From Roseicyclus sp. (GTDB taxonomy: Bacteria > Pseudomonadota > Alphaproteobacteria > Rhodobacterales > Rhodobacteraceae), in contig NZ_JAGYJN010000001.1 of assembly GCF_018402035.1 (NCBI RefSeq), forward strand, positions 496,001 to 560,000: a DNA stretch of 64,000 nt, written 5' to 3'. Positions 45,262 to 60,161 of the stretch are shown piece by piece. The notes beneath the pieces were generated by a model, which saw only the letters and a program-made list of their open reading frames with translations, was not told the origin of the DNA and ran no database searches. The stretch's first letter is position 1; each line of letters opens with the position of its first letter. The translations under genes were made by a program, and so were the position numbers.

Positions 45262-46422
45262 TTACACCTTGACGATCTTGACCCGGTCGCCCTTGGCGGA
45301 AAGCGCGATCTCACCGCGCACAAGGCGCAGCGCGTCATTGCCAAAAACTTCGCGCCGCCAGCCTGTTGCCCAGATCCCGTTGTGATCGCCGCAAGCGATA
45401 TCGTCGAGGTCGGCGGAGGAGGCGATGAGCTTGGTGGCAACGCCCGCCTCTTCGGCCTTGGCCTTGAGCAAGACGCGCAACAAATCGGCCAGCGCGCTGT
45501 TGAGGTTCGAGCGGTCGCGCCCCTCGGGCATCTCGGGCTGACGCTCGGCTGGCATCTCGAGCCCAGCCACCACCGCCGCGACCAGACCTTCGGCAATCTC
45601 GCCCTTGCGCGCATCGCGCAGCAATAGCCGCGATTTCGACAGATCGGCCAAGCTGCGCGGCTTGGTCGAAGCAAGTTCGATCAGCGCGTCATCCTTGATC
45701 ACCCGGCTTCGGGGGATGTTCTTTTGCTGGGCATAGCGCTCGCGGAAGGCGGCCAATTCCTTGGCGATGCCCAAGGTGCGCCCGGAACTCGTGCGCAGCT
45801 TCAGCCTTTGCCATGCGTCTTCAGGATCGACGATGTAACTCGAGGCATCGGTAAGCTGCGCCAATTCCTCTTCCAGCCATTGGGTGCGCCCGGTGCGCGC
45901 CAACTCGGCCCTGAGATATTCGTAGATCTGGCGCAGATGGGTCACATCGGCCAGCGCATAGGTCTTTTGCGCGTCACTCAAGGGGCGGCGTGACCAATCC
46001 GTAAAGCGCGAGGATTTGTCGAGATTGGCGCGCGCGATCTTGCGCACCAATGTCTCGTATCCCACCTGATCGCCAAAGCCACAGACCATCGCCGCGACCT
46101 GCGTGTCGAACAGCGGGCTTGGCACAACACCCCCCTCGACATGAAAGATTTCAAGGTCTTGGCGTGCGGCGTGGAACACCTTGATGACATTGGGATTGCG
46201 AAACAGCGCGTAAAGCGGATCGAGCGAGAGCCCCTCGGCCAGCGGGTCGACCAAGACGGCCTCGCCGTCGCCTTGCCCCGGCAACGCAAGCTGCACCAAG
46301 CAAAGCTGTGCAAAATAGGTCCGCTCGCGCAGGAATTCCGTATCGACGGTGACATAGGGCGCATGTTCAGCCTTGGAACAAAACGCCGCCAGCGCCTCGG
46401 TGGTTGTCAAGATCTCGGTCAA
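45262..46422 (-). CDS. rnd: Ribonuclease D
   Basis: This 3'-5' exoribonuclease trims tRNA and other small RNAs. The DEDDy catalytic residues are visible: D and E in V-D-T-E-F-L-R-E-R, D in A-A-R-Q-D-L-E-I-F, and the Y...D pair in Y-A-L-A-D-V-T-H-L-R. An HRDC domain follows from about residue 200. The frame is open to 46509, with an ATG at 46470 and a farther one at 46509. A TTG at 46422 gives 386 residues, the normal length, so I prefer it, but the start is uncertain. Confidence 0.9.
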   Translation of the reverse strand: MTEILTTTEALAAFCSKAEHAPYVTVDTEFLRERTYFAQLCLVQLALPGQGDGEAVLVDPLAEGLSLDPLYALFRNPNVIKVFHAARQDLEIFHVEGGVVPSPLFDTQVAAMVCGFGDQVGYETLVRKIARANLDKSSRFTDWSRRPLSDAQKTYALADVTHLRQIYEYLRAELARTGRTQWLEEELAQLTDASSYIVDPEDAWQRLKLRTSSGRTLGIAKELAAFRERYAQQKNIPRSRVIKDDALIELASTKPRSLADLSKSRLLLRDARKGEIAEGLVAAVVAGLEMPAERQPEMPEGRDRSNLNSALADLLRVLLKAKAEEAGVATKLIASSADLDDIACGDHNGIWATGWRREVFGNDALRLVRGEIALSAKGDRVKIVKV

Positions 46423-46563
46423 TGCAGTGGTCTTTTTCGCCACCCGCCATGGCACGGGCCAAATCCGCATAGGCGAGGCGCGCGGGAAAGAAAAGGGGCC
46501 GCGTGCCACCGCCCTGCGCGCGTTTGGCCCTGCCGGCCCCGGTCCGACAGCGCCTAGGCTGCC

Positions 46564-46992
46564 TTAATCGGCGAAAAGCGCGCGGATATCGCGGGTCATT
46601 TGCCCGCGCAGTTGCGCCATCTCTCCGGGTGAGAGGCGGGCATCGAGCACATCGAAGACCCCGCTGATTGCGCCTGCGATATCCTCGGGCGGCTCGGGGC
46701 CGAAGATCGCCACGACACGGGCGATGAAGTCATCCTTGTCGCGGATCGCGGCAGGCATGCTTGAGGGGTTGTAGCCCTCGTAAAAAATGCCGCGCACAAA
46801 GATCGGCAATTGCGCCGACAGATGCGCGGCGCTGTCGGGGGTCAACTGATCGCGCAGCGCATGCAACACCGCGCGCAACAGGCGATAGGCGCGCTGCTTG
46901 TTGACCAGCCCCACACGGTAATCGACCTCGTTGATCCAGATATTGGCCTGTTGCACGGATTCGTCGATGATCTTTAACCCAAGCGCGCTCAT
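46564..46992 (-). CDS. DUF2267 domain-containing protein
   Basis: The 142-residue protein is all-helical and matches DUF2267: a tandem of similar halves with A-Y-R-L-L-R-A-V-L-H-A-L-R-D-Q-L and V-F-D-V-L-D-A-R-L-S-P-G-E-M. The L-P-I-F-V-R-G-I-F-Y-E-G-Y segment is typical. The function of the family is unknown. It is divergent from the first gap gene with a 236-base intergenic region that holds LacI-type sites. Confidence 0.87.
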   Translation of the reverse strand: MSALGLKIIDESVQQANIWINEVDYRVGLVNKQRAYRLLRAVLHALRDQLTPDSAAHLSAQLPIFVRGIFYEGYNPSSMPAAIRDKDDFIARVVAIFGPEPPEDIAGAISGVFDVLDARLSPGEMAQLRGQMTRDIRALFAD

Positions 46993-47094
46993 CTGCCTTG
47001 CTCCTTCATGTCGGTGCGATCATGCCGCCGGGGACAGGAAATCATGGCCATCGCATGCGCGCCTTGATCTTGATCACTGGGCCATTGCGGGGCG

Positions 47095-47139
47095 TGTTAG
47101 CGCAAACCCGCGATGTTGACGCTAACGGTTACGCTAACA
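47095..47139. promoter_or_regulatory. Cluster of LacI-type (CceR-like) sites upstream of the first gap gene
   Basis: Three overlapping or adjacent matches to TGTTAnCGnTAACA occur at 47095-47108, 47114-47127 and 47126-47139, with two or three mismatches each. The second and third contain the direct repeat ACGCTAAC. The region lies about 90-130 bp before the gap start. LacI-family CceR controls central carbon genes in Rhodobacter, and this resembles its site as I recall it. Confidence 0.5.
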
Positions 47140-47228
47140 TCCGGAATTGCGACGATTTTTCCTTGGCCAATGCGGCATGCTTGGGTATGCGAAGCAAAGA
47201 CTTCGCGCGACAAACCATGAGGCTTGGC

Positions 47229-48233
47229 ATGACGATCACCCTTGGGATCAACGGTTTCGGACGGATCGGGCGCTGTACGCTCGCCCATATCACGGAAGCC
47301 GCGCGCAACGATGTGCAGGTGGTCAAGATCAACGCCACCGGCCCGATTGAGACCACCGCCCATCTTCTGCGCTATGACAGCGTGCATGGCCGTTTTCCCG
47401 GCGAGGTGCGCGTGCAGGGCGACACCATGGATCTGGGCCGTGGCCCGATGAAGGTGTTTTCAACCTATGATCCGGCCGAATTGGATTGGGAAGGCTGCGA
47501 TGTGGTGCTGGAATGCACCGGAAAGTTCAACAGCCGCGACGCCGCCGCCGTCCATCTGACGCGCGGGGCCAAGCGTGTGCTGGTCTCGGCACCCGCCAAG
47601 AATGCCGACAAGACCATCGTCTATGGTGTGAACCACCGCGAGCTTTTGGCCGAGCATCATGTCGTCTCGAACGGGTCTTGCACGACCAATTGCTTGGCCC
47701 CGATTGCCAAGGTTCTCAATGACGCGATTGGCATTGAGCGCGGGATTATGACAACGATCCACAGCTACACGGGCGACCAGCCCACGCTGGACCGCCGCCA
47801 TGACGATCTTTATCGCGCGCGCGCTGCCGCGATGGCGATGATCCCCACCTCGACCGGGGCGGCCAAAGCTCTCAAAGAGGTGCTGCCCGAGTTGGAAGGC
47901 CGCCTTGACGGCACATCGCTGCGCGTGCCCACACCCAATGTTTCTTGTGTCGATCTGACCTTCGAGGCCGGGCGCAGCGTGACGGTGCAAGATGTGAACG
48001 AGATCATGCGCGAAGCCGCCGAGGGACATATGCGCAGCGTCTTGTCCTATGACACCGAGCCCAAGGTCTCGATCGATTTCAACCATACGACATTCTCAGC
48101 CATCTTCGCCCCCGATCAGACCAAGGTCGTGGGCGGGCGCACCGTGCGCGTCTTGGCGTGGTACGATAACGAATGGGGCTTTTCGGCGCGCATGGCCGAT
48201 GTCTCGGCGGCGATGGGGCGTTTGCTGCACTGA
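47229..48233 (+). CDS. gap: Glyceraldehyde-3-phosphate dehydrogenase, paralogue 1 (Ala at the NAD-specificity position)
   Basis: The 334-residue enzyme oxidises glyceraldehyde 3-phosphate or works in reverse. The start at 47229 follows a GAGG site. The NAD fold begins [10 protein letters not shown], the catalytic cysteine is in S-N-G-S-C-T-T-N-C, and [10 protein letters not shown] follows. At the residue that selects NAD over NADP (usually Asp, in I-N-D) it has Ala36 (I-N-A-T-G-P), as in gluconeogenic NADP-using GapB of Bacillus. So it may use NADP and act mainly in gluconeogenesis. It heads the gap-smORF-gap-pgk-fba block. Confidence 0.95.
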   Translation: MTITLGINGFGRIGRCTLAHITEAARNDVQVVKINATGPIETTAHLLRYDSVHGRFPGEVRVQGDTMDLGRGPMKVFSTYDPAELDWEGCDVVLECTGKFNSRDAAAVHLTRGAKRVLVSAPAKNADKTIVYGVNHRELLAEHHVVSNGSCTTNCLAPIAKVLNDAIGIERGIMTTIHSYTGDQPTLDRRHDDLYRARAAAMAMIPTSTGAAKALKEVLPELEGRLDGTSLRVPTPNVSCVDLTFEAGRSVTVQDVNEIMREAAEGHMRSVLSYDTEPKVSIDFNHTTFSAIFAPDQTKVVGGRTVRVLAWYDNEWGFSARMADVSAAMGRLLH

Positions 48234-48256
48234 CCGCGCGGTGACGGCTGACCAAG

Positions 48257-48296
48257 ACCCGCGCGCTGCTTGATCGGTGGCGCGCGGGTTTTCTTT
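48257..48296 (+). terminator. Terminator after the first gap gene
   Basis: ACCCGCGCG (48257-48265) pairs with CGCGCGGGT (48281-48289) and is followed by TTTCTTTT. It implies the first gap gene is transcribed separately from the rest of the block. Confidence 0.85.
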
Positions 48297-48341
48297 TGCG
48301 CGCGCCCGTGCAAGGTTGCGCCCAGTGTAACGAGGGCGGTC

Positions 48342-48485
48342 ATGACCAACGGTTTGGCGATTTTCTTTGCAATCTCTATCGCGGTGTTCTTGGCCATCGA
48401 TGCCAGCCTCTTTGGCTGGGATGTATCACTCTCGCTGGCGCGGCGCTTTGCCGGTCTGCTCAACTGGATGGCCTTTTGGCGCTAA
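48342..48485 (+). CDS. Small single-pass membrane protein between the two gap genes
   Basis: The 47-residue ORF starts at an ATG preceded by GAGGG and encodes M-T-N-G, then a hydrophobic helix (about residues 5-24, I-F-F-A-I-S-I-A-V-F-L-A-I), then an amphipathic part with L-A-R-R-F and a C-terminal W-M-A-F-W-R. Such a composition is not expected by chance in a GC-rich spacer. It lies between a terminator and the operator of the second gap gene. Function is unknown; it may be a small inner-membrane regulator. Confidence 0.65.
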   Translation: MTNGLAIFFAISIAVFLAIDASLFGWDVSLSLARRFAGLLNWMAFWR

Positions 48486-48523
48486 CCCCTTCCCTTTTTT
48501 CCCGGTCTTGGTTAAAAGGTTTA

Positions 48524-48537
48524 TGTTAGCGGTAACA
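48524..48537. promoter_or_regulatory. LacI-type (CceR-like) operator upstream of the second gap gene
   Basis: TGTTAGCGGTAACA matches TGTTAnCGnTAACA at every fixed position and is extended by A/T on each side. It lies 67 bp before the start codon of the second gap gene. Confidence 0.65.
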
Positions 48538-48604
48538 TTTCAACCTGTGCTGGCCTTTGGCGGCAGTGCCGCACCAGCCACCGAGACAGACGGGAGAGCG
48601 TGCC

Positions 48605-49609
48605 ATGGCCGTAAAGGTCGCCATCAACGGGTTTGGTCGGATCGGGCGCAATGTGCTGCGCGCCATCATCGAAAGCGGACGCACCGATATCGAGGTGGTC
48701 GCGATCAATGATCTAGGCCCGGTCGAGACGAACGCCCATCTGTTGCGCTTTGACAGCGTGCATGGTCGCTTTCCGGCCACGGTGACGACAACGGCCAATT
48801 CCATTGATGTCGGGCGCGGCCCCATCGCGGTGACAGCAATCCGCAACCCGGCCGAGTTGCCTTGGGCGGGTATCGATATCGTGCTGGAATGTACCGGCAT
48901 CTTCACCGACCGCGACCGCGCCGCGATCCATCTGGAAAACGGCGCAAAGCGGGTGCTTGTCTCGGCCCCATCGAAAGGTGCCGACAAGACCATCGTTTAT
49001 GGTGTGAACCACAAGACGCTGACGCGCGATGATGTGATCGTCTCGAACGCATCATGCACGACCAATTGCTTGGCCCCCGTGGCCCATGTGCTGCATCAAG
49101 CCATCGGCATCACGCGCGGCTTCATGACCACGATCCACAGCTATACGGGCGACCAGCCGACACTCGATACAATGCACAGCGATCTTTACCGCGCGCGTGC
49201 CGCCGCACTGAGCATGATCCCCACCTCCACGGGTGCGGCCAAGGCGGTGGGGCTGGTGCTGCCGGAGCTCGACGGCAAGCTTGACGGTGTGGCGATCCGG
49301 GTGCCGACGCCCAATGTCTCGGTCGTCGATCTGACATTCGAGGCCGCGCGCGACACATCCACCGCTGAGATCAACGCCGCCATCCATGCCGCCGCCGCGC
49401 ATGGCCCGCTCAAGGGCATCTTGGGCGCGACCGATGACAAGCTGGTCAGCCAAGATTTCAACCATGATCCCCATTCCTCGATCTTTGCCACCGACCAGAC
49501 CAAGGTGATGGATGGCAATCTGTGCCGGGTGCTAAGTTGGTATGACAATGAATGGGGCTTTTCCAACCGCATGGCCGATACGGCGGTCGAGATGGGCAAG
49601 CATCTGTAA
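48605..49609 (+). CDS. gap: Glyceraldehyde-3-phosphate dehydrogenase, paralogue 2 (NAD-type)
   Basis: The 334-residue protein is a paralogue of the gene 0.4 kb upstream, with the same core motifs: [16 protein letters not shown] and W-Y-D-N-E-W-G-F. It keeps Asp36 in I-N-D-L-G-P, the usual NAD-binding residue, so it is likely the glycolytic NAD enzyme. Its own operator (48524-48537) and the pgk gene 160 bases downstream suggest a separately regulated unit. Start is the ATG at 48605. Confidence 0.95.
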
Positions 49610-49769
49610 CGGCGGGCGCGATGTGGGGATGGGCGCGAAATTTTGCCCCCGCCCCCGTGCCTGTGATTTTCTGCTTTCGTAAAATAGGCCCGCCAAAGCT
49701 GTCGAAGTCTCTGGCGTGTCACAAAACGCATGCTAAGACCGCGGCGCGAAAGCGATGACGGAGGGTAAG

Positions 49770-50954
49770 ATGCGCTGGAAAACACTCGATGACATGGAGA
49801 TGGGCGGCAAGACCGTGCTGGTCCGTGTCGATATCAATGTGCCGCTCCAAGATGGTCAGGTCAGCGACGATACCCGCATCAGGCGCATCGCGCCGACAAT
49901 CCACGACATCTTGGCCAAGGGCGGCAAGCCCGTGCTGTTGGCCCATTTCGGTCGGCCAAAGGGCAAGCCCGTGGCCGAGATGTCGCTCCGCGTGACACTG
50001 CCCGCGCTCGAGGCTGCCTTGGGCCGCCCCGTCACCTTTGTCGAGACACCCAGCCGTGCCGGATTAGACGCCCTACCCGCCGATGCGGTGGTGCTGGTCG
50101 AAAACACCCGCTTCACCCCGATGGAGGAAGCCAACGATCCCCAGATGGCGCAGTTCCTTGCCAGCTTGGGCGATATCTATTGCAACGACGCCTTTTCGGC
50201 CGCGCACCGCGCCCATGCCTCGACCGAAGGGGTGGCGCGGCTGTTGCCCGCTTGCGCCGGGCGGCTGATGGCCGCCGAACTGGCCGCGCTTGAGGCGGCC
50301 TTGGGCCGCCCTGCCCGCCCCGTGGTGGCGGTTGTGGGCGGTGCCAAGATTTCCACCAAGCTTGATCTCTTGGCAAATCTAACCCGCAAGGTCGATCAGC
50401 TGATCATCGGCGGCGGCATGGCCAATACCTTTCTTGCCGCACAAGGGCATGGCGTAGGAAAATCGCTCTGCGAGCATGATCTGGCCGACACCGCGCGCGC
50501 GATCATGGCGGGTGCCGCTGCGGCGGGCTGTGAGATCATCTTGCCCAGCGATGTGGTGGTGGCTGAAGCCTTTGCCGCCCATGCCCCCCATCAGGTGATG
50601 GCAATCGACGCTGTGCCAGAGGGGGGGATGATCCTTGACGCTGGCCCCGAGACCGTGGCGCGGATCACCGCCGCATTTGCACAGGCCAAAACGCTGATCT
50701 GGAACGGCCCCTTGGGTGCCTTTGAGATTGCGCCTTTTGATGCTGCCACCGTCGCTGCCGCGCGCGCTGCGGCAAAGCTGACGCAATCGGGCAATCTGAT
50801 TTCGGTCGCGGGTGGCGGGGATACGGTGGCCGCACTGAACCAAGCAGGCGTGGCTGATGATTTCAGCTATGTCTCGACGGCGGGTGGCGCATTCCTTGAA
50901 TGGATGGAGGGCAAGACATTGCCCGGTGTCGCGGCACTTGAAATCACGGATTAA
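49770..50954 (+). CDS. pgk: Phosphoglycerate kinase
   Basis: The 394-residue enzyme transfers phosphate between 1,3-bisphosphoglycerate and ADP. The start ATG at 49770 follows GGAGG; the ATG at 49755 is upstream of that site and is less likely. Motifs are V-R-V-D-I-N-V-P, the substrate loop [26 protein letters not shown] and the nucleotide loop [10 protein letters not shown]. It follows the second gap gene and precedes fba. Confidence 0.97.
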
Positions 50955-51039
50955 GCGACTGTTTGCGCCACCATGATGGACAGGCGCCAAGCGCTTTGGC
51001 ATGGAGTGGAAATTGCCCAACGCCATAAGGAGTGCGCCA

Positions 51040-51930
51040 ATGTCGCGTGATGCCATGACCCGCCAAATGCAGACCGGACAAGGGTTCATCGCGGCACTTG
51101 ATCAATCGGGCGGCTCCACCCCTAAAGCGCTCAAGCTTTATGGCGTGCCAGAGGCGGCCTATGCCACCGAGGTTGAGATGTTCGACCTGATCCACGCCAT
51201 GCGTGCGCGCATCGCCACCGCCCCGGCCTTTCGCGGTGACAAGGTCATCGGTGCGATCTTGTTCGAAATGACCATGGAGCGCGAGATCGCGGGCCAACCC
51301 GCCGCAAGCTATCTATGGGCGGAAAAGGGCGTTGTCCCCTTCCTCAAGATCGACAAGGGGCTAGAGGCTGCGGCCAATGGCGTGCAGATGCTCAAACCCA
51401 TCCCCGGCCTTGACGCGCTGCTTGATCGCGCCGTGGCGCATGGGATTTTCGGCACCAAGGAACGCTCGGTCATTCTTGGGGCCGATGCAGGCGGCATTGC
51501 CGATATCGTGGCCCAACAGATCGATCTGGGCCTTAAGGTGCTGGCCAAGGGGCTGATCCCGATCCTAGAGCCCGAAGTTGATATCAACGCCCCCGACAAA
51601 CCCGCCGCCGAAGAGATGCTTTTGGCCGCCCTGCTCAAGGGGCTTGATGCGGTGCCGGATGGCGCGCAGGTGATGCTCAAGCTGACCATCCCCAACCATC
51701 CTGGCCTTTACGCGCCCTTGATGGCGCATCCAAAGGTGATGCGCGTTGTGGCGCTATCGGGCGGCTATCACCGCGATGACGCCTGTGCGCGGCTGGCCCA
51801 AAACCCCGGCATGATCGCAAGCTTCTCGCGCGCCCTAACCGAGGGGTTATCGGCCGATCAATCCGATGCGGATTTCAACGCCACACTCGGCGCGGCCATC
51901 GACGCGATCCATGCAGCCTCGATAAGCTAG
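51040..51930 (+). CDS. fba: Class I fructose-bisphosphate aldolase
   Basis: The 296-residue protein is a metal-independent aldolase of the short bacterial class I type. The start at 51040 follows AAGGAG. Visible features are A-A-L-D-Q-S-G-G-S-T-P-K near the start, the conserved Lys in P-F-L-K-I-D-K-G, the Glu in I-L-E-P-E-V-D, and the Schiff-base Lys in V-M-L-K-L-T-I-P-N. It cleaves fructose 1,6-bisphosphate. It follows pgk by 85 bases, in the glycolytic cluster, and is followed by a hairpin and then the ftsB promoter region. Confidence 0.93.
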   Translation: MSRDAMTRQMQTGQGFIAALDQSGGSTPKALKLYGVPEAAYATEVEMFDLIHAMRARIATAPAFRGDKVIGAILFEMTMEREIAGQPAASYLWAEKGVVPFLKIDKGLEAAANGVQMLKPIPGLDALLDRAVAHGIFGTKERSVILGADAGGIADIVAQQIDLGLKVLAKGLIPILEPEVDINAPDKPAAEEMLLAALLKGLDAVPDGAQVMLKLTIPNHPGLYAPLMAHPKVMRVVALSGGYHRDDACARLAQNPGMIASFSRALTEGLSADQSDADFNATLGAAIDAIHAASIS

Positions 51931-51954
51931 GCGCACGCTATACGGCGAAAAAAC

Positions 51955-52006
51955 GAATCATTTTCGCGAAATGGGGGATTCCCTTTCGCGAATCATTGTG
52001 CGATTC
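51955..52006. promoter_or_regulatory. Cluster of four CcrM methylation sites (GANTC) upstream of ftsB
   Basis: GAATC at 51955, GATTC at 51977, GAATC at 51990 and GATTC at 52002 lie within 52 bp, 52 bp before the ftsB start. GANTC is the target of the cell-cycle methyltransferase CcrM in alphaproteobacteria, and the chance density at this GC content would be roughly one per 300 bp. A hairpin GCGAAAA/TTTTCGC (51945-51967) at the end of fba overlaps the first site. Confidence 0.6.
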
Positions 52007-52057
52007 TCCCCCTAACGCACCGGAACAGGTGCGGGGAAAAGGCAGCGCAGCACGGTC

Positions 52058-52351
52058 ATGACACGTACGAAATCTCTTGGTGGTTTGATCCTGCCCGTCG
52101 TGCTGCTGTTTATCGGGGCGCATTTCACCTTTACTGCGGTGCAAGGCGACTATGGGCTTTTCCAGCGCGTCCAGATCGAGGCCGAGGCCGCACGGCTTGA
52201 GGTGCAGCTGGCCGCGATCAGCCAAGATGTCGCCCGGATCGAGCTTTTGACCCGCCGCCTGTCGGATGACTATCTCGATCTCGACTTGCTCGATCAGCAA
52301 TTGCGCGATGTTTTGGGCTATATCCGCGCCGATGAGATCGTCTTGCCCTGA
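52058..52351 (+). CDS. ftsB: FtsB/DivIC-family septum formation initiator
   Basis: The 97-residue bitopic protein has a basic N-terminus, one transmembrane helix (about residues 9-25) and a periplasmic coiled coil (about 35-65, E-A-E-A-A-R-L-E-V-Q-L-A). This is the layout of FtsB, which links FtsL and FtsQ in the divisome and helps activate septal wall synthesis. It lies between fba and pdhA on the same strand but has its own upstream region rich in GANTC sites. Identity rests on topology, size and its usual position near pdhA in alphaproteobacteria. Confidence 0.87.
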   Translation: MTRTKSLGGLILPVVLLFIGAHFTFTAVQGDYGLFQRVQIEAEAARLEVQLAAISQDVARIELLTRRLSDDYLDLDLLDQQLRDVLGYIRADEIVLP

Positions 52352-52357
52352 TCTAAA

Positions 52358-52405
52358 GCGTGTCGCGTTCGCCTGTTGCGGTGAATGCGATAGAACGCGA
52401 CACGC
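52358..52405. repeat. Inverted repeat after ftsB (13-bp perfect arms)
   Basis: GCGTGTCGCGTTC (52358-52370) pairs with GAACGCGACACGC (52393-52405) around a 22-nt loop, seven bases after the ftsB stop. No T-run follows. It looks like a dispersed REP-type or attenuator hairpin rather than an ordinary terminator. Confidence 0.7.
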
Positions 52406-52556
52406 GCTAGGCTGTGACGCGCCCCTTTGCCTTTCCAAAAATTCGCAAAACAGACCAATCCGCCACGGGCATGGCGGCTGAGTAGCCTTGCATCTATTGC
52501 AACCCCCTGCGTCAGGATTGCCGGGTGCAATCTGTCATTGCCTATGATAGGGAACT

Positions 52557-52570
52557 GTTTAACGTTAAAC
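52557..52570. promoter_or_regulatory. LacI-type palindromic operator upstream of pdhA
   Basis: GTTTAACGTTAAAC is a perfect 14-bp palindrome with a central CG, 31 bp before the pdhA start (22 bp before an alternative upstream ATG). The core matches the site upstream of lpdA, consistent with joint control of all four PDH genes. Confidence 0.6.
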
Positions 52571-52601
52571 TATCTTTGCGATCCGGGGGAGGATGACCCG
52601 C

Positions 52602-53606
52602 ATGCCACCACGCAAAACCGCGGCAACAACCGAGGCGGCAAGGCCGAATATTTCGGCTGATGACCTCAAACGCTATTACCGCGATATGCTTTTGATCCGC
52701 CGCTTCGAGGAAAAGGCGGGCCAGCTTTATGGCATGGGCCTGATCGGCGGCTTTTGTCACCTCTATATCGGCCAAGAAGCGGTCGTCGTGGGCCTTGAGG
52801 CTGCGGCCTCCGAGGGGGACAAGCGCGTCACCTCCTACCGCGACCATGGCCATATGCTGGCCTGCGGCATGGACCCCAAGGGTGTGATGGCCGAGTTGAC
52901 CGGCCGCATTGGGGGCTATTCCAAGGGCAAAGGCGGCTCGATGCATATGTTCTCCAAGGAAAAGCATTTCTACGGCGGGCATGGGATCGTGGGCGCGCAG
53001 GTGCCGATTGGGGCGGGTTTGGCATTTGCCGACAAGTATCTTGGCAATGACCGCGTGACCTTCGCCTATTTTGGCGATGGGGCCGCCAACCAGGGCCAGG
53101 TCTATGAGACCTACAATATGGCCCAGCTTTGGGATTTGCCCGTCATCTTCGTGATCGAGAATAACCATTATGCGATGGGCACCTCCGTCACCCGCGCCAC
53201 CAAATCCCCCGCGCTGTGGAAGCGTGGCGAGGCTTATGGCATCGCGGGCGAAGAGGTGAACGGGATGGATGTGCTGGCCGTCAAGGGTGCAGGCGAGCGC
53301 GCGGTCGCGCACTGCCGCGCGGGCAAGGGCCCCTATATCCTCGAGGTGATGACCTATCGCTATCGCGGCCATTCCATGTCGGACCCCGCGAAATACCGCA
53401 CCCGCGAAGAGGTGCAGGAGATGCGCGAAAAGCGCGACGCCATCGAACAAGTGCGCCAGATGTTGCTGACGGGCGGCCATGCCTCTGAGGACGATCTGAA
53501 AAAGATCGACAAGGAGATCAAGGATATCGTCAATGACGCCGCCGAATTCTCCAAGGAAAGCCCAGAGCCGCCGCTCGAAGAGCTTTGGACAGACATCTAC
53601 GCCTGA
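52602..53606 (+). CDS. pdhA: Pyruvate dehydrogenase E1 component, alpha subunit
   Basis: The 334-residue subunit contributes the thiamine-diphosphate site, with the G-D-G-A-A-N-Q-G...N-N motif (residues 153-182) and the phosphorylation-loop-like Y-R-Y-R-G-H-S-M-S-D-P. The start at 52602 is favoured because GGGGGAGG (52585-52592) lies 9 bases before it; the ATG at 52593 is directly against that site. It heads the operon pdhA-pdhB-pdhC. Regulation probably acts at the palindrome 31 bp upstream. Confidence 0.97.
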   Translation: MPPRKTAATTEAARPNISADDLKRYYRDMLLIRRFEEKAGQLYGMGLIGGFCHLYIGQEAVVVGLEAAASEGDKRVTSYRDHGHMLACGMDPKGVMAELTGRIGGYSKGKGGSMHMFSKEKHFYGGHGIVGAQVPIGAGLAFADKYLGNDRVTFAYFGDGAANQGQVYETYNMAQLWDLPVIFVIENNHYAMGTSVTRATKSPALWKRGEAYGIAGEEVNGMDVLAVKGAGERAVAHCRAGKGPYILEVMTYRYRGHSMSDPAKYRTREEVQEMREKRDAIEQVRQMLLTGGHASEDDLKKIDKEIKDIVNDAAEFSKESPEPPLEELWTDIYA

Positions 53607-53621
53607 GAGGACGACACAGAT

Positions 53622-54977
53622 ATGGCAACCGAGATTTTGATGCCCGCCCTCTCCCCCACGATGGAAGAAGGCACGCTGGCCAAATGGCTGGTGAAAGAAG
53701 GCGATACCGTGAAAGCGGGCGATATCATCGCCGAGATCGAAACCGACAAGGCGACGATGGAATTCGAAGCTGTCGATGAGGGTGTGATCGGCAAGATCCT
53801 GATCGCCGAAGGCACCGAAGGGGTGAAGGTCAACACCGCCATCGCCATCATCGGCGAGGCGGGCGAGGCGATGACAGCACCCGCTGCCCAAGCCGCCGAG
53901 GCGCCGCAGGCCGCCGAGAAGGTGCCCGCCGCTGTTGCGGCCGCACCTGCCGCGCCGGTGGTTGATCGCAGCCCCGATTGGCCCGCTGGCACGCCGATGA
54001 AAACCCAGACCGTGCGCGAAGCCTTGCGCGACGCCATGGCCGAGGAGATGCGCGCCGACCCCACCGTCTTTGTGATGGGTGAAGAGGTCGCGGAATACCA
54101 AGGCGCCTACAAGGTGACGCAAGGTCTGCTTGATGAGTTCGGGGCCAAGCGCGTCATCGACACGCCGATCACCGAACATGGCTTTGCCGGTATCGGCGTT
54201 GGCGCGGCATTCGGCGGGCTGAAGCCCATCGTCGAGTTCATGACCTTCAACTTCTCGATGCAGGCGATTGACCATGTGATCAATTCGGCCGCCAAGACGC
54301 TCTACATGTCGGGCGGCCAAATGGGCGCGCCGATGGTGTTTCGCGGCCCCAACGGGGCTGCTGCTCGCGTGGCCGCCCAACACAGCCAAGATTTCGCGGC
54401 ATGGTATGCCCATATTCCGGGCCTGAAAGTGGTACAGCCCTACTCGGCGGCGGATGCCAAGGGCTTGCTCAAAACCGCGATCCGTGACCCGAACCCGGTC
54501 ATCTTCCTTGAAAACGAGATCCTTTATGGCCGTTCCTTCGAGGTGCCCGATATTGCCGATTTCACCATCCCCTTCGGCAAGGCCCGCATCTGGCGTGAAG
54601 GCAGCGATGTCACCCTGATCAGCTGGGGCATCGGCATGACCTATACGCTTGAGGCGGCAGAGATCCTCGCCAAGGAAGGGATTAGCGCCGAGGTGATCGA
54701 CCTGCGCACGCTGCGCCCGCTTGATTACGATACGGTGCTGGCCTCGGTGATGAAAACCAACCGCTGCGTGACCATCGAAGAGGGCTTTCCCGTCGCCTCT
54801 ATCGGCAATCACTTGGGCGCATGGATCATGCAAAACGCCTTTGATTATCTCGATGCGCCGGTGATCAACTGCACGGGCAAGGATGTGCCGATGCCCTATG
54901 CAGCCAATCTTGAAAAGCTGGCACTCGTCACCACCGCCGAGGTGGTCGAAGCCGCACGCAAAGTCACCTATCGCTAA
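53622..54977 (+). CDS. pdhB: Pyruvate dehydrogenase E1 component, beta subunit with N-terminal lipoyl domain
   Basis: The 451-residue protein has a full lipoyl domain at residues 1-78 (lipoyl-lysine K43 in E-T-D-K-A-T-M-E-F), an Ala/Pro linker to about residue 125, and then the E1-beta transketolase-like domains with [12 protein letters not shown] and [10 protein letters not shown] lipoyl domain on E1-beta is known in alphaproteobacteria. The domain is almost identical to that of PdhC 1.4 kb downstream. It follows pdhA by 15 bases. Confidence 0.97.
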
Positions 54978-54988
54978 GGAGCGCGGAT

Positions 54989-56290
54989 ATGCCTACGGAA
55001 ATCCTGATGCCCGCGCTCTCCCCCACGATGGAGGAGGGCACGCTGGCCAAATGGCTGGTGAAAGAGGGCGATAGCGTCAAATCCGGCGACATCATCGCCG
55101 AGATCGAGACCGACAAGGCGACGATGGAATTCGAAGCCGTCGATGAAGGTGTGATCGGTAAGCTTTTGGTCGCCGAAGGGACCGAAGGGGTAAAGGTCAA
55201 CGCCCCCATAGCTGTGCTTTTGGCCGATGGCGAAACGGCCGGCGATATGGCCAGCGCAGCCCCCAAAGCGAAAGCTGCCCCTGCCCCGGTTGCCGCCGCC
55301 CCGGCACCGGTTGCCGCTGCTGCACCTGCCGCTTCTGCACCGAAAGCCGCCGATGGCGCACGGCTCTTTGCCACGCCCTTGGCGCGGCGCATCGCGGCCG
55401 AGAAAGGGCTCGATCTAGCCGGGATCAAAGGCTCTGGCCCGCATGGCCGGATCGTCAAGGCCGATGTCGCGGGGGCCACGGCCAGCGCCGCACCGCAAGC
55501 CGCCGCCACGACAGCGCAAGCCCCGGCCCCTGCCGCCAAGGCCGCATCCATGCCGACCGGCCCCGATGCCGCGCAAGTCATCCGCATGTATGAGGGCCGC
55601 ACCTTTGAAGAGGTCAAGCTTGACGGTATGCGCAAGACGGTCGCCGCCCGACTGACCGAGGCCAAGCAGACGATCCCGCATTTCTACCTGCGCCGGGATA
55701 TCCGGCTTGACGCGCTGATGTCTTTCCGTGGGCAACTCAACAAGCAGCTCGAGGCCCGTGGCGTAAAGCTGTCGGTCAACGACTTCATCATCAAGGCCTG
55801 CGCATTGGCACTGCAACAGGTGCCTGCCGCCAATGCCGTTTGGGCGGGCGACCGGATCTTGCGCCTGAAACCTTCGGATGTGGCCGTGGCCGTCGCCATC
55901 GATGGCGGGTTGTTCACGCCGGTTCTGAAAGATGCCGATCAAAAAAGCCTCTCGGCGCTGTCGTCCGAAATGAAGGATCTGGCTAAGCGCGCGCGCGACC
56001 GCAAACTGGCCCCGCATGAATATGTCGGCGGCACATTCGCGATCAGCAATCTGGGCATGTATGGGATCGATAATTTCGACGCGGTCATCAATCCGCCCCA
56101 TGGCGCGATCTTGGCCGTGGGTGCGGGCGTCAAGAAACCCGTGGTGGGTGCCGATGGCGGGCTGAGCGTCGCGACCGTCATGTCGGTCACGCTTTCGGTC
56201 GATCACCGCGTGATCGACGGCGCACTTGGGGCAGAGCTGTTGCAAGCAATTGTTGACAATCTCGAGAATCCCATGGCTATGCTTGCATAA
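54989..56290 (+). CDS. pdhC: Pyruvate dehydrogenase complex, dihydrolipoamide acetyltransferase (E2)
   Basis: The 433-residue core subunit has one lipoyl domain (K43), an Ala/Pro linker, a peripheral-subunit-binding domain (about residues 130-165: [12 protein letters not shown] to [10 protein letters not shown]) and a C-terminal acetyltransferase domain with the catalytic His in S-V-D-H-R-V-I-D-G. It passes acetyl groups to CoA, and E3 (lpdA, 10827-12221) reoxidises the lipoyl arm. The gene is 11 bases after pdhB. Inverted repeats at 56301-56326 and 56333-56365 follow. Confidence 0.97.
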
Positions 56291-56300
56291 GCAAGTAATA

Positions 56301-56365
56301 GCGGTGCCGGGGAGGAGCGGCACCGCGAAAGCACGGGGCCGCGATCTGCGTATCGGCGGCCCCGT
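56301..56365 (+). terminator. Two GC-rich hairpins after pdhC (possible terminator)
   Basis: GCGGTGCC (56301-56308) pairs with GGCACCGC (56319-56326). ACGGGGCCG (56333-56341) pairs with CGGCCCCGT (56357-56365). Neither has a T-run, so they may slow RNA polymerase or protect the mRNA 3' end rather than terminate by the usual mechanism. Confidence 0.45.
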
Positions 56366-56413
56366 CGCCTGTCTGGGACAACCCGCCTTGCAAGATCTTC
56401 TATCAGAACTGCC

Positions 56414-57001
56414 TTAAGGCTGCAGCGCCTTCCACGTGCCGGGGGACAAGCCCTCGAGCGTGTGATCGCCCACCGACCAACGGATCAGCCGCAGAACCGG
56501 CAGGCCCACATGGGCGCACATGCGCCGCACTTGGCGATTGCGCCCCTCGGTAATGGTCAGTTGCAGCCAAGCCTCGGGCACATTCAGCCGAAACCGCACG
56601 GGTGGATCGCGCGGCCATAGCCAATCGGGGGCCGTGACCTCCGCGACCTTTGCAGGTCTTGTCGGCCCGTCCTTCAAGGTCACACCCTGACGGAGTGCGG
56701 CAAGCGCTTCGGGCGTTGGGGTGCCTTCGACCAGCACGAAGTATGTCTTGGGCGTGGCCGATCTCGGATCGGTTAGCCGTGCCTGCAAGATGCCATCATT
56801 GGTCAAGAGCAACAGCCCCTCGCTATCGCGGTCAAGCCGGCCCGCAGGGTAAAGCCCCGGCATGTCCAGATAGCGCTTCAGCCCCGGCCAATGCCCGTCA
56901 TCGGTGAACTGGCTTAAGACATCCATCGGTTTGTTGAAACCGATCAGCCGCGTCTCGCTGCGCGGAAGCGCGGGTTTGGCGCGCGGGCGCGGGCGGCTCA
57001 T
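56414..57001 (-). CDS. rRNA pseudouridine synthase, RluE-like
   Basis: The 195-residue enzyme belongs to the RsuA/RluB/RluE group. The catalytic Asp57 is in [10 protein letters not shown], and L-L-L-L-T-N-D-G and R-N-R-Q-V-R-R-M complete the signature. There is no N-terminal S4 RNA-binding domain, as in RluE, which modifies 23S rRNA. The ATG at 57001 overlaps the stop of the YjbR gene by four bases, so translation is coupled. The basic Arg/Pro start is typical for the family. Confidence 0.9.
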
Positions 57002-57357
57002 GCTTGGCCGGCCTTCCATGTCGCAAGCCAACGTTTCGGGGCCATGTCTTCCCATGTGCGACGCAGCCGCGCCTCGGCCCAGCCCCGATCGATCCGGCCC
57101 GCTGCGACCAAGATCAGGGCATGATTGGCGTAATGGTCATGGTGCAAGAAGGCGGTGGGGTCGGCGGCTTGCAAGATCTCGCGCTCGGGGATGGCGCATT
57201 TGAACACTGCCGCATCAACATAGGGCGACCACCAACACCACATCTTGCCATGCGCTTTCAGGTTGGGATTGCCCCAGCTGACCGCGTCTTCGACCTGCGG
57301 CAGGTCCAGCGACAGGGCAAGCGCGCGCAACTCGGGCCATGTCGCGATACCGGCCAT
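56998..57357 (-). CDS. MmcQ/YjbR family DNA-binding-like protein
   Basis: The 119-residue protein has the YjbR fold motifs: A-L-A-L-S-L-P-type start, [17 protein letters not shown], and the C-terminal W-E-D-M-A-P-K-R-W. The family resembles the C-terminal domain of transcription factors and has been called DNA-binding, but its function is unclear. The ATG at 57357 overlaps the polA stop (TGATG). The next gene overlaps by ATGA, so three genes are translationally linked. Confidence 0.85.
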
Positions 57358-60161
57358 CAATGCGCCACCGCCCAGTTCGGCCCCTGCCCTGCATCGACGA
57401 TGATCGGCACATCAAGATGCACGGCGGGCAAGGCCGCCCCCTCCATCACGTCGCGCGCGCGGGTGATGAGGGTGTCGACAGCAGCCTCATCCACCTCGAA
57501 GAGCAATTCGTCATGGACCTGCAACAGCATGCGCGCGGGCAGATCGCGGGTGGCATCCTCCATGCGGATCATCGCGCGGCGGATGATATCGGCGGCCGTG
57601 CCTTGAATGGGCGCGTTGATCGCGGCGCGCGCGGCAAAGCCCGCACCCGGCCCCTTGGCGTTGATCTCGGGCGTATGGATCTTGCGGCCGAACAGGGTTT
57701 GCACATAACCATTTGATTTCGCGAAGGCTTTGGTCGCGTCCATATAGGCGCGGATGCCGGGGAAACGCTCGAAATAGCGGTCGATAAAACCCTGCGCCTC
57801 GGCGCGCGGGATGCGCAGGTTGCGCGCCAGGCCAAAGCCCGAGATGCCGTAGATCACGCCGAAGTTGATCGCCTTGGCCTGACGGCGCACATCGGGCGTC
57901 ATCTGGTCCAGCGGCACGCCGAACATCTCGGAGGCGGTGGCGGCGTGAATATCCTGCCCCTCGCGAAAGGCCTGTTTCAGCGCATCGATCCCTGCGATAT
58001 GCGCCAAGATGCGCAATTCGATCTGGGAATAGTCCAAGGATACCAGAACCTTGCCCGTGTCAGCCACGAAGGCTTCGCGGATGCGGCGGCCATCTTCGGT
58101 GCGGACGGGGATATTTTGCAGGTTCGGATCGGTCGAGGCCAAACGCCCGGTATTGGCACCCGCGATGACGTAGGAGGTATGCACCCGCCCCGTGTCGCGG
58201 TTGATGTGTTCTTGCAAGGCGTCGGTATAGGTGGATTTCAGCTTTTGGATCTGGCGATAGTCCAGCACGCGGGCGGCAAAATCATGGGTGGCGGCGAGGT
58301 CTTCCAACACCTCGGCGGGTGTCGACCATTGGCCGGTCTTGGTCTTTTCGCCGCCCGCAAGCCCCATCTCTTCGAAGAGGATCTGGCCCACCTGCGCGGG
58401 GGATTGCACGTTGAAGGGGTGGCCCGCGAGGTCAAACAATTCCGCCTCAAGCCCGGCCATTTTCTGGGCAAAAGCGTTGGACATACGGCTGAGCACATCG
58501 CGGTCAACTTTGATACCCGTCATCTCCATCCGCGCGAGAACCGGCACCAGCGGGCGCTCCATCGTCTCGTAGACCGTGGTGACTTGGGCGCGGTGCAGTT
58601 GCGGCTTGAAGGTCTGCCACAGCCGCCATGTCACATCGGCATCCTCGGCGGCATAGGGGGCGGCTTGATCAAGCGGCACCCGGTCGAATGTGATCTGCGA
58701 TTTGCCCGCGCCGATCAATTCCTTGATCGGGATCGGCGTGTGGCCAAGGTAGCGTTCCGATAGCGCATCCATCCCATGGCCGTGCAGCCCGGCGTTCAGC
58801 GCGTAGGACATCAGCATCGTGTCATCGATGGGCGCGACTGCGATCCCGTAACGGGCAAGGATCTTCACATCATATTTGGCGTTTTGCAGGATTTTCAGAA
58901 CCGATGCATCCTCGAGCATCGGTTTGAGCAGGGCCAGCGCCGCATCAAGGCCCATCTGCCCCTCGGCCAGCGCGGTCGAGCCAAAAAGCCCCTCGCCGCC
59001 CTCGGCGCGGTGGGCCAGCGGGATATAGCAGGCCTCATTCGGGCCGGTAGCGAGCGAAATGCCGACCAGATCGGCGGTCATCTCATCAAGGCCGGTGGTT
59101 TCGGTGTCGATGGCGATGGCACCCGTGGCATGGGCCCGCGCGATCCATTGGGCCAGCGCAGCGGCATCGCCGACGATCTGATAGGTGCTGCGGTCGATGG
59201 GCGGCATGGCGGGGGCCGCGTCATGCGCCGGATCGGCCCCGCGCGGGTCGGTATCGATGATGGCGGGTGCGGCCACGCCGAAGCCATCTGCGATGCGCTT
59301 GGTCAGGGTGCGAAACTCCATCTTGGCAAGGAATTCGAGCAAGACCGCCGCCTCGGGTTCGCGCACTTCCAGATCGTCGAGGGTGACATCGATGGGTGTC
59401 TGGTCATCCAAGGTCACAAGCAGCTTGGACAGGCGGATCTGGTCGGCGAAATCGATCAAGGTCTGGCGGCGCTTGGGCTGTGGCACTTCATCTGCCCGTT
59501 CAAGAAGCGCCTCCAAACTCCCGAATTCATTTATAAGAAGTGCGGCGGTCTTGATCCCGATACCGGGCGCGCCGGGGATATTGTCGACACTGTCACCGGC
59601 CAAGGCCTGCACATCGACCACACGGTCGGGGCGGACGCCAAACTTGGCCTCGACCCCCTCGCTGTCGATGCGCAGATTCTTCATCGCGTCAAACATCTCC
59701 ACCCCGCCGCCGACAAGCTGCATCAGATCCTTGTCAGAGGAAATGATCGTGCAGCGCCCCCCCGCCTCGCGGGCTTGGCGGGCAAGGGTGGCGATGATGT
59801 CGTCGGCCTCGTAATTCTCCAGCTCAAGACAGGCGATGTTGAAGGCGCGCGTGGCCTCCCGCGTCAGCGGGATCTGGGGGCGCAAATCCTCGGGCATGGC
59901 CTCGCGGTTGGCCTTGTAGAGGTCGTACATATCGTTGCGAAACGTATGGCTGCCCTTGTCGAACACCACGGCGGCATGGGTGGGCGCATCCGGGCCGGTA
60001 TTGGCCTCGATCATGCGGTGGATCATGTTGCAAAAACCCGAGACCGCCCCGATGGGCAGCCCGTCGGATTTCCGCGTCAGCGGCGGCAGCGCATGATAGG
60101 CGCGGAAGATAAAGGCCGAGCCATCGACGAGATGCAGGTGATGTCCCTTGCCGAATCCCAT
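57357..60161 (-). CDS. polA: DNA polymerase I
   Basis: The 934-residue enzyme has all three domains. The 5' nuclease starts H-L-V-D-G-S-A-F-I-F-R-A-Y-H. The 3'-5' exonuclease keeps the Asp-Glu pair (I-D-T-E-T-T-G-L-D), so proofreading is expected. The polymerase has D-Y-S-Q-I-E-L-R, A-K-A-I-N-F-G-V-I-Y-G and V-H-D-E-L-L-F-E. The start ATG at 60161 has GGGGGAG 9 bases ahead; a GTG at 60170 is also in frame. It fills repair and Okazaki gaps and completes UvrABC excision repair (uvrA is also in this window). Confidence 0.97.
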   Translation of the reverse strand: MGFGKGHHLHLVDGSAFIFRAYHALPPLTRKSDGLPIGAVSGFCNMIHRMIEANTGPDAPTHAAVVFDKGSHTFRNDMYDLYKANREAMPEDLRPQIPLTREATRAFNIACLELENYEADDIIATLARQAREAGGRCTIISSDKDLMQLVGGGVEMFDAMKNLRIDSEGVEAKFGVRPDRVVDVQALAGDSVDNIPGAPGIGIKTAALLINEFGSLEALLERADEVPQPKRRQTLIDFADQIRLSKLLVTLDDQTPIDVTLDDLEVREPEAAVLLEFLAKMEFRTLTKRIADGFGVAAPAIIDTDPRGADPAHDAAPAMPPIDRSTYQIVGDAAALAQWIARAHATGAIAIDTETTGLDEMTADLVGISLATGPNEACYIPLAHRAEGGEGLFGSTALAEGQMGLDAALALLKPMLEDASVLKILQNAKYDVKILARYGIAVAPIDDTMLMSYALNAGLHGHGMDALSERYLGHTPIPIKELIGAGKSQITFDRVPLDQAAPYAAEDADVTWRLWQTFKPQLHRAQVTTVYETMERPLVPVLARMEMTGIKVDRDVLSRMSNAFAQKMAGLEAELFDLAGHPFNVQSPAQVGQILFEEMGLAGGEKTKTGQWSTPAEVLEDLAATHDFAARVLDYRQIQKLKSTYTDALQEHINRDTGRVHTSYVIAGANTGRLASTDPNLQNIPVRTEDGRRIREAFVADTGKVLVSLDYSQIELRILAHIAGIDALKQAFREGQDIHAATASEMFGVPLDQMTPDVRRQAKAINFGVIYGISGFGLARNLRIPRAEAQGFIDRYFERFPGIRAYMDATKAFAKSNGYVQTLFGRKIHTPEINAKGPGAGFAARAAINAPIQGTAADIIRRAMIRMEDATRDLPARMLLQVHDELLFEVDEAAVDTLITRARDVMEGAALPAVHLDVPIIVDAGQGPNWAVAH

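Follow-up and report, generated by a model that had tools for sequence, protein, structure and literature searches.

CcrM methylation sites on the predicted promoter of ftsB in Roseicyclus and other Rhodobacterales suggest control of a late division gene by the GcrA/CcrM system

In Caulobacter crescentus, promoters under the control of GcrA and CcrM, such as those of mipZ, podJ and ctrA P1, are σ70 promoters with a GANTC site between the −35 and −10 elements, where it takes the form YGAKTCK/TGATTCG. A review describes GcrA as bound to σ70, directing RNA polymerase to promoters that are methylated and accelerating open-complex formation (PMC7403470). Binding of GcrA is reported to be strongest on fully methylated DNA (PMC3667746). 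In Caulobacter, activation at 40–60 min of the cycle is described for transcription starts that have a GANTC between the −35 and −10 elements, and usually one site is present; 11 of 96 cell-cycle-regulated starts with GANTC have more than one (PMC4287350). The CcrM-dependent promoter of the Caulobacter divisome gene ftsZ contains a conserved GANTC in the form CGACTC (PMC3708114). At the IS10 transposase promoter and at promoters affected by MamA, which depend on other methyltransferases, an m6A site overlaps the −10 element at a fixed position (PMC3701705). In Agrobacterium tumefaciens, three and six GANTC sites per promoter have been described in the repABC and gcrA regions, that is, at replication and regulator genes, and methylation represses gcrA there (PMC11514494).

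The ftsB promoter region of Roseicyclus shares features with each of these systems. Like the Caulobacter GcrA/CcrM promoters, it combines predicted σ70 elements with a spacer site in YGAKTCK/TGATTCG form in a genome that encodes both proteins, but it carries four sites, some of which lie on the −35 and −10 elements, and the target is ftsB. It resembles Caulobacter ftsZ as a divisome gene with a conserved promoter GANTC and differs from it by a register-exact set of −35, spacer and −10 sites. As in IS10, a methylatable adenine overlaps the −10 element; in ftsB this adenine is −11A, and the layout extends across many Rhodobacterales genera. The multiplicity of sites recalls Agrobacterium. In the text of the open-access literature searched, ftsB was not found paired with GcrA or CcrM. 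The main text of PMC7987155 contains neither FtsB nor DivIC nor septum, and ftsB may be listed in its ranked supplement under another name. The three-position layout, the −11A site and a leader shared by ftsB and ccrM were likewise not met in this literature, which was covered for them mostly without name-specific queries. Promoters of the GcrA/CcrM kind as such are known.

We analyzed a stretch of 64,000 nucleotides from a Roseicyclus genome (the window), in which an intergenic stretch of 127 bases separates ftsB from the upstream gene:

51001–51930, plus strand: fructose-bisphosphate aldolase gene, upstream of ftsB (NF003784, 461.6 bits)
52058–52351, plus strand: ftsB, 97 aa, DivIC/FtsB family (PF04977, 32.5 bits with a cut-off of 28.9, E 7.5e-08)
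52593–53606, plus strand: pdhA, pyruvate dehydrogenase E1 alpha, downstream of ftsB (TIGR03182, 509.1 bits)

The ftsB product gave no NCBIfam match up to an E-value of 0.01. Further upstream, a tandem pair of glyceraldehyde-3-phosphate dehydrogenase genes (47250–49609) lies ahead of pgk and the aldolase gene. Just upstream of pdhA, the palindrome GTTTAACGTTAAAC at 52557–52570 resembles an operator; it recurs, exactly or with one or two changes, in several of the relatives' stretches that cover this region. An Rfam search of positions 46000–58000 yielded as its sole match up to E 1 a lncRNA family at 48378–48470 (E 0.71, below cut-off).

Matches to ftsB were present in 52 of 61 genomes. The 30 best loci, from the source genome and 29 relatives, were pooled with 80 loci from named public genomes (the best 80 of at least 570 confirmed), whose records include Roseicyclus, Roseovarius, Yoonia, Loktanella, Ruegeria and Paracoccus. 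Removal of six duplicates from these 110 loci left 104, among which both members of the pair L015/L101, probably one contig, were kept. The record of L101 is titled Enemella evansiae, an actinobacterial name, and carries a Rhodobacteraceae-type ftsB; it is probably mislabelled or a mixed assembly. In 91 of the 104 loci pdhA was found downstream on the same strand (contig ends clip some loci), and these 91 were used for the tree. Gap-free alignment on the −35 GATTC resulted in an anchored set of 87 loci, 78 of which are on the tree; the other 17 of the 104, which lacked GATTC in the form chosen, were excluded. A second set of 84 loci was found from the −10 side, where GATTC did not serve as anchor. 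Alignments A2 (49 of the 87 loci) and A3 (40 of the 87) were chosen by eye. Alignment A4 contains 29 of 45 loci preselected from the 87 for at least five of six paired positions, which inflates its percentage of pairing, and A5, the basis of model R2, contains 23 ftsB leaders.

The 160 bp upstream of ftsB contained 14.06 GANTC per kb (234 in 16,640 bases; 104 loci), which is 19.7 times denser than the rest of the same loci (0.715 per kb; 278 in 389,016 bases). At least one site was present in this region in 99 of the 104 loci. Two or more were found in 70 of the 104, compared with 20 of 2351 other tiles. The most frequent spacings between sites were 12, 25 and 13 bp. In the window, a sequence-only reading had noted four GANTC sites in front of ftsB, and all of them are present: GAATC at 51955, GATTC at 51977, GAATC at 51990 and GATTC at 52002. 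That reading also placed the cluster at promoter distance from a divisome gene. This agrees with our alignment, in which three of the four sites sit on predicted ftsB promoter elements conserved in many Rhodobacterales. The consensus of the 87 anchored loci reads GGGATTCMCW, spacer, TRTGNSATNNT, followed by an A six bases later. We read this as a predicted extended −10 σ70 promoter with a 17-bp spacer and the off-consensus −35 sequence TTCMCW. Its parts in the window, with conservation in the relatives, are as follows:

51955–51959, no strand assigned: upstream GANTC, TGATTCG on the minus strand; weakly conserved; in 22 of 87 loci a GANTC precedes the −35 site at a distance of up to 30 bp
51977–51981, no strand assigned: GANTC site 1, overlapping the −35 element; kept as GATTC in 81 of the 84 loci found from the −10 side
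51979–51984, plus strand: −35 hexamer TTCCCT, 17 bp from the −10 element; TTCCCT in 41, TTCACA in 31 and others in 15 of 87 loci
51985–52001: spacer of 17 bp, holding the 51990 site
51990–51994, no strand assigned: GANTC site 2, in the spacer, TGATTCG on the minus strand; register 11–13 in 48 of 87 loci
51999–52000, plus strand: TG of the extended −10 element; in 87 of 87 anchored loci
52002–52006: GANTC site 3, within the −10 element; this register in 31 of 87 loci; the methylatable A of the non-template strand is −11A (52003)
52002–52007, plus strand: −10 hexamer GATTCT; A2 and T6 in 84 of 87 loci
52014, plus strand: predicted transcription start; A at this column in 61 of 87 loci; prediction only
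52016–52033, plus strand: 5′ leader hairpin CGCACC-GGAACA-GGTGCG, proposed from folding z, compensatory changes and likeness to ccrM
52039–52045, plus strand: Shine-Dalgarno-like AAGGCAG; GAGGCAG in most aligned relatives (A3, 40 leaders)

When the −10 register was slid by 1–6 bases, A2 and T6 coincided in at most 3 of 87 loci. A generic promoter and terminator scan of 51800–52650 returned nothing, which we attribute to the off-consensus −35 element. Promoter model R1 matched ftsB alone in the source genome (150 of 514 first-look candidates scored). A dyad, TTTCGCGAAA ... TTTCGCGAA, surrounds the −35 element (51962–51992); in L003 it reads TTTCGTGAAA ... TTTCACGAA with compensating changes, and L002 has no dyad.

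Conservation of the cluster in relatives, a check suggested by the sequence-only reading, differed in extent among the −35, spacer and −10 sites and was weak for the site at 51955. Site 1 was nearly invariant. Searched from the −10 side, none of ten other registers had a GANTC in more than 4 loci, and on the tree site 1 was present in 72 of the 74 rows found in this way, with 2 changes. Its middle base was fixed (always GATTC from the −10 side), a G preceded it in all anchored loci, and the form YGAKTCK was found in none of the 87. As site 1 lacks the GcrA form, its near-perfect conservation could serve σ or another factor. Site 2 followed another pattern: 44 of the 48 sites had the form YGAKTCK and 32 of the 48 the form TGATTCG, compared with 72 and 8 of 186 background sites of the source genome. 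Three of the four window sites match YGAKTCK. On the tree, site 2 was gained or lost often (23 changes). Besides the 31 loci with site 3, another 15 of 87 had a GANTC two or three bases past its register, and a GANTC covering −11A was present in 11 of 12 ftsB loci of the source genus. The middle base of site 3 was T in 13, A in 13, C in 3 and G in 2 of the 31 loci. On the 78-row tree the presence of site 3 changed 4 times, compared with 10 changes of the free N within the 29 rows that have it. A free N with GA and TC kept would be expected under selection for GANTC, because the −10 element itself has no requirement here beyond A2 and T6. Tests on the tree gave no significant link between the first base of the −10 element and its TC, with few independent events, and no association of sites 2 and 3. 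Spacer and −10 sites (registers 25, 28) occurred together in 31 of 87 loci; 27 of 87 had neither, only the −35 site.

Both proteins of the system are predicted in the source genome, GcrA by PF07750 (159.2 bits) and a CcrM-type enzyme by its RAMA domain (64.6 bits) and a methyltransferase-like N terminus. We compared 51 genomes, taking a match with E up to 0.001 as presence, so that GcrA of G037 and RAMA of G052 were counted below their curated cut-offs; G055 (match at a contig end) and the second hit of G050 were left out. Of the 40 genomes with both proteins, 27 had a pair of GANTC sites 11–14 bp apart upstream of ftsB, as did 1 of 6 with neither, 2 of 3 with RAMA only and none of the 2 with GcrA only. 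The difference between 27 of 40 and 1 of 6 gives a Fisher p of 0.028, a value that ignores kinship and rests on small numbers. The exception is G060, a genome of 86% completeness with five GANTC sites at ftsB in which neither protein was found; conversely, four genomes with both proteins have no GANTC at ftsB. Among 17 genomes from other families, 8 carry TTGAC ahead of such a GANTC pair upstream of ftsB. The pair therefore seems to be old and the −35 site a feature of Rhodobacterales, a direction of change that we infer from these sequences. No GANTC was present within 500 bp upstream of the assumed starts of ftsZ, mipZ and gcrA of the source genome, so that the set of targets known from Caulobacter does not simply carry over.

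A published comparison counts CcrM itself among the likely core targets of GcrA in the class, with loss in part of the class (PMC7987155). The ccrM promoter of the source genome has a layout like that of ftsB, with TTGACT, 17 bp containing GAATC, and GATTCT. Promoter and leader (G000:C12:96915-97003; L032, L143, L185) contain three GANTC sites, and the ccrM leader carries an ftsB-like hairpin and AGAGGCAG. TTGAC, a spacer GANTC and a second GANTC 14–20 bases further on were found in 24 of 30 ccrM loci (L163 not read). In 8 of 10 ccrM promoters of the source genus the second GANTC starts the −10 element after a 17-bp spacer.

The hairpin at the start of the predicted ftsB transcript was examined separately. 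In the 87 loci, the first 30 nt from the predicted start had a mean folding z of −1.5 relative to shuffled sequences, with z below −1 in 58 of 87, compared with means of −0.07 to −0.78 at five control offsets. Among the 45 loci preselected for pairing, the hairpin starts 0–4 nt past the predicted start in 43. RNAalifold returned four pairs for 40 of the 87 leaders that were not preselected for pairing, with two-sided changes in some sequences and broken pairs in others; in the preselected subset, two-sided changes occurred at all seven pairs. Model R2, built from 23 ftsB leaders and no ccrM leader, had the ccrM leader as its top match in the source genome (25.4 bits), followed by two matches inside open reading frames and then ftsB (19.6 bits), which was not in the training set. 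The best two matches were ftsB (in the training set) and ccrM in G006, G002 and G009, and ccrM and ftsB, neither of them in the training set, in G011. These searches scored 150 candidates per genome and gave weak E-values of 0.003 to 1.6. At lower scores, the hairpin and GAGGCAG also precede a gene in G006, G009 and G011 (L200, L202, L203) whose N terminus reads like that of a D-alanyl-D-alanine carboxypeptidase. The leaders of ftsB, ccrM and this third gene possibly belong to a wider family.

The predicted promoter elements, their fixed spacing and the conserved placement of CcrM sites on −35, spacer and −10 can be read directly from the aligned loci. We consider it likely that the ftsB cluster is a σ70 promoter controlled by the GcrA/CcrM system as a whole. 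CcrM would methylate the promoter sites, and GcrA, carried by σ70 RNA polymerase, would read mainly the spacer site in its TGATTCG form and activate transcription. The imperfect −35 element (TTCMCW instead of TTGACA) would make the promoter dependent on GcrA. In the source genus, the −10 site would place the methylated base on −11A and may thereby also affect melting directly. The ftsB transcript would start with a stable hairpin resembling that of the ccrM mRNA. Activation by GcrA through the spacer site is the most likely route, given the published recruitment by GcrA, its preference for full methylation and the timing of Caulobacter starts. Several observations count against control by GcrA and CcrM: the 27 loci without spacer or −10 site, the −35 site that never takes the GcrA form, the exceptions in the comparison of genomes (G060 and the four genomes that have both proteins but no GANTC at ftsB) and the lack of GANTC ahead of ftsZ, mipZ and gcrA, as well as published data. 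The YGAKTCK preference reported for Caulobacter was not seen in a study of Brevundimonas (PMC7987155), and FtsB is missing from Table 1 of a ccrM study in Caulobacter, where FtsZ, FtsN, MipZ and FtsW appear as essential genes that have GANTC and are misregulated (PMC3973325).

Intergenic GANTC enrichment is known for this bacterial class (PMC3973325), so that sites might have gathered in an intergenic stretch by chance. The window contains 36 GANTC, compared with 260.6 ± 15.7 expected from dinucleotide shuffles, a seven-fold depletion over positions 1–64000. When 36 sites were placed at random, four fell within the observed span in 0.0105% of trials; weighting intergenic sequence 20 times, an extreme bias, raised this to 1.1%. 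The 190 GANTC in 364 kb of the source genome form no second cluster of four sites within 60 bp, confirming the earlier impression of a density beyond expectation. Two further groups have three sites each, one at the ccrM promoter and the other at L148:14262-14309 (G000:C12:374262-374309), about 70 bases upstream of a minus-strand reading frame of 359 aa. With these frequencies and the exact register across 87 loci, chance clustering is extremely improbable and was rejected. Scarcely any weight remains for a cruciform or RNA fold of GGGGGA (51973) with TCCCCC (52007), which the sequence-only reading had also raised. Both strings exist in the window, but TCCCCC occurs in only 4 of 87 loci including that of the window, the two are not paired with each other in the predicted minimum-energy fold of the 127-base intergenic stretch, and the predicted start lies downstream of both arms. 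This fold was discarded; the conserved hairpin lies further downstream, at 52016–52033. The −35 GATTC might instead be kept as part of a σ70 or activator sequence, GGGGATTCMC, with CcrM recognition incidental. This would suit site 1, with its invariant GATTC, the G before it and its lack of the GcrA form, but it explains neither why sites 2 and 3 keep GA and TC while N varies nor the co-occurrence with CcrM and GcrA, and we regard it as improbable.

A different possibility is a direct switch independent of GcrA, in which m6A on −11A, together with that at −9 of the template strand, hinders recognition by σ and melting. The base −11A is flipped into σ during promoter melting. The promoter would then fire mainly on the sister with the newly made non-template strand, as proposed for the IS10 transposase, and the same layout at ccrM would mean negative autoregulation of CcrM. 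Methylation of a Dam site at the −10 element of IS10 transposase inhibits transcription, with a hemimethylated intermediate (PMC3701705). With this precedent, a GANTC that places A at −11 in 31 of 87 ftsB loci and nearly all those of the genus, and the equivalent layout of the ccrM promoters, a direct effect of methylation is possible. As the main explanation we hold it to be rather unlikely: 56 of 87 ftsB loci have no −11A site, and more loci have the spacer site in GcrA form, for which a direct switch would have no need. Moreover, methylation activates ftsZ and mipZ in Caulobacter (PMC3708114), and MamA sites overlapping the −10 element act in the opposite way to IS10 (PMC3701705). A narrower proposal, which we put forward as doubtful, concerns the source genus and some of its neighbors. 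There the CcrM site would be the −10 element of both ftsB and ccrM, m6A at −11A would make the sister promoters unequal after passage of the fork, and the two genes, sharing a leader hairpin, would be co-regulated.

The sequence-only reading had suggested that ftsB could be timed to the cell cycle by the change of methylation state as the fork passes. Taking dnaA as origin and the opposite point as terminus, and assuming circular and complete contigs, ftsB lies at 72% (G006), 72% (G015), 65% (G021) and 76% (G025) of the replichore. According to the rule described for Caulobacter, such loci are hemimethylated only briefly (PMC3708114). At 65–76% of the way to the presumed terminus, the hemimethylated period of ftsB would thus be short. 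A strong fork-timed switch is not indicated by these positions, and control by full methylation, as at Caulobacter ftsZ, would fit at least as well.

The free variation of the middle base of the −10 site, with GA and TC kept, makes an effect of m6A at −11A directly testable. If the co-regulation of ftsB and ccrM proposed for the genus is true, a small set of genes would link the methyltransferase to the late divisome. With methylation sites on the predicted ftsB promoter, and much of their arrangement kept in many relatives, control of a late division gene by the cell-cycle methylation system is suggested. A system studied mainly at ftsZ, mipZ and ctrA of Caulobacter would thereby gain a target in the late divisome.
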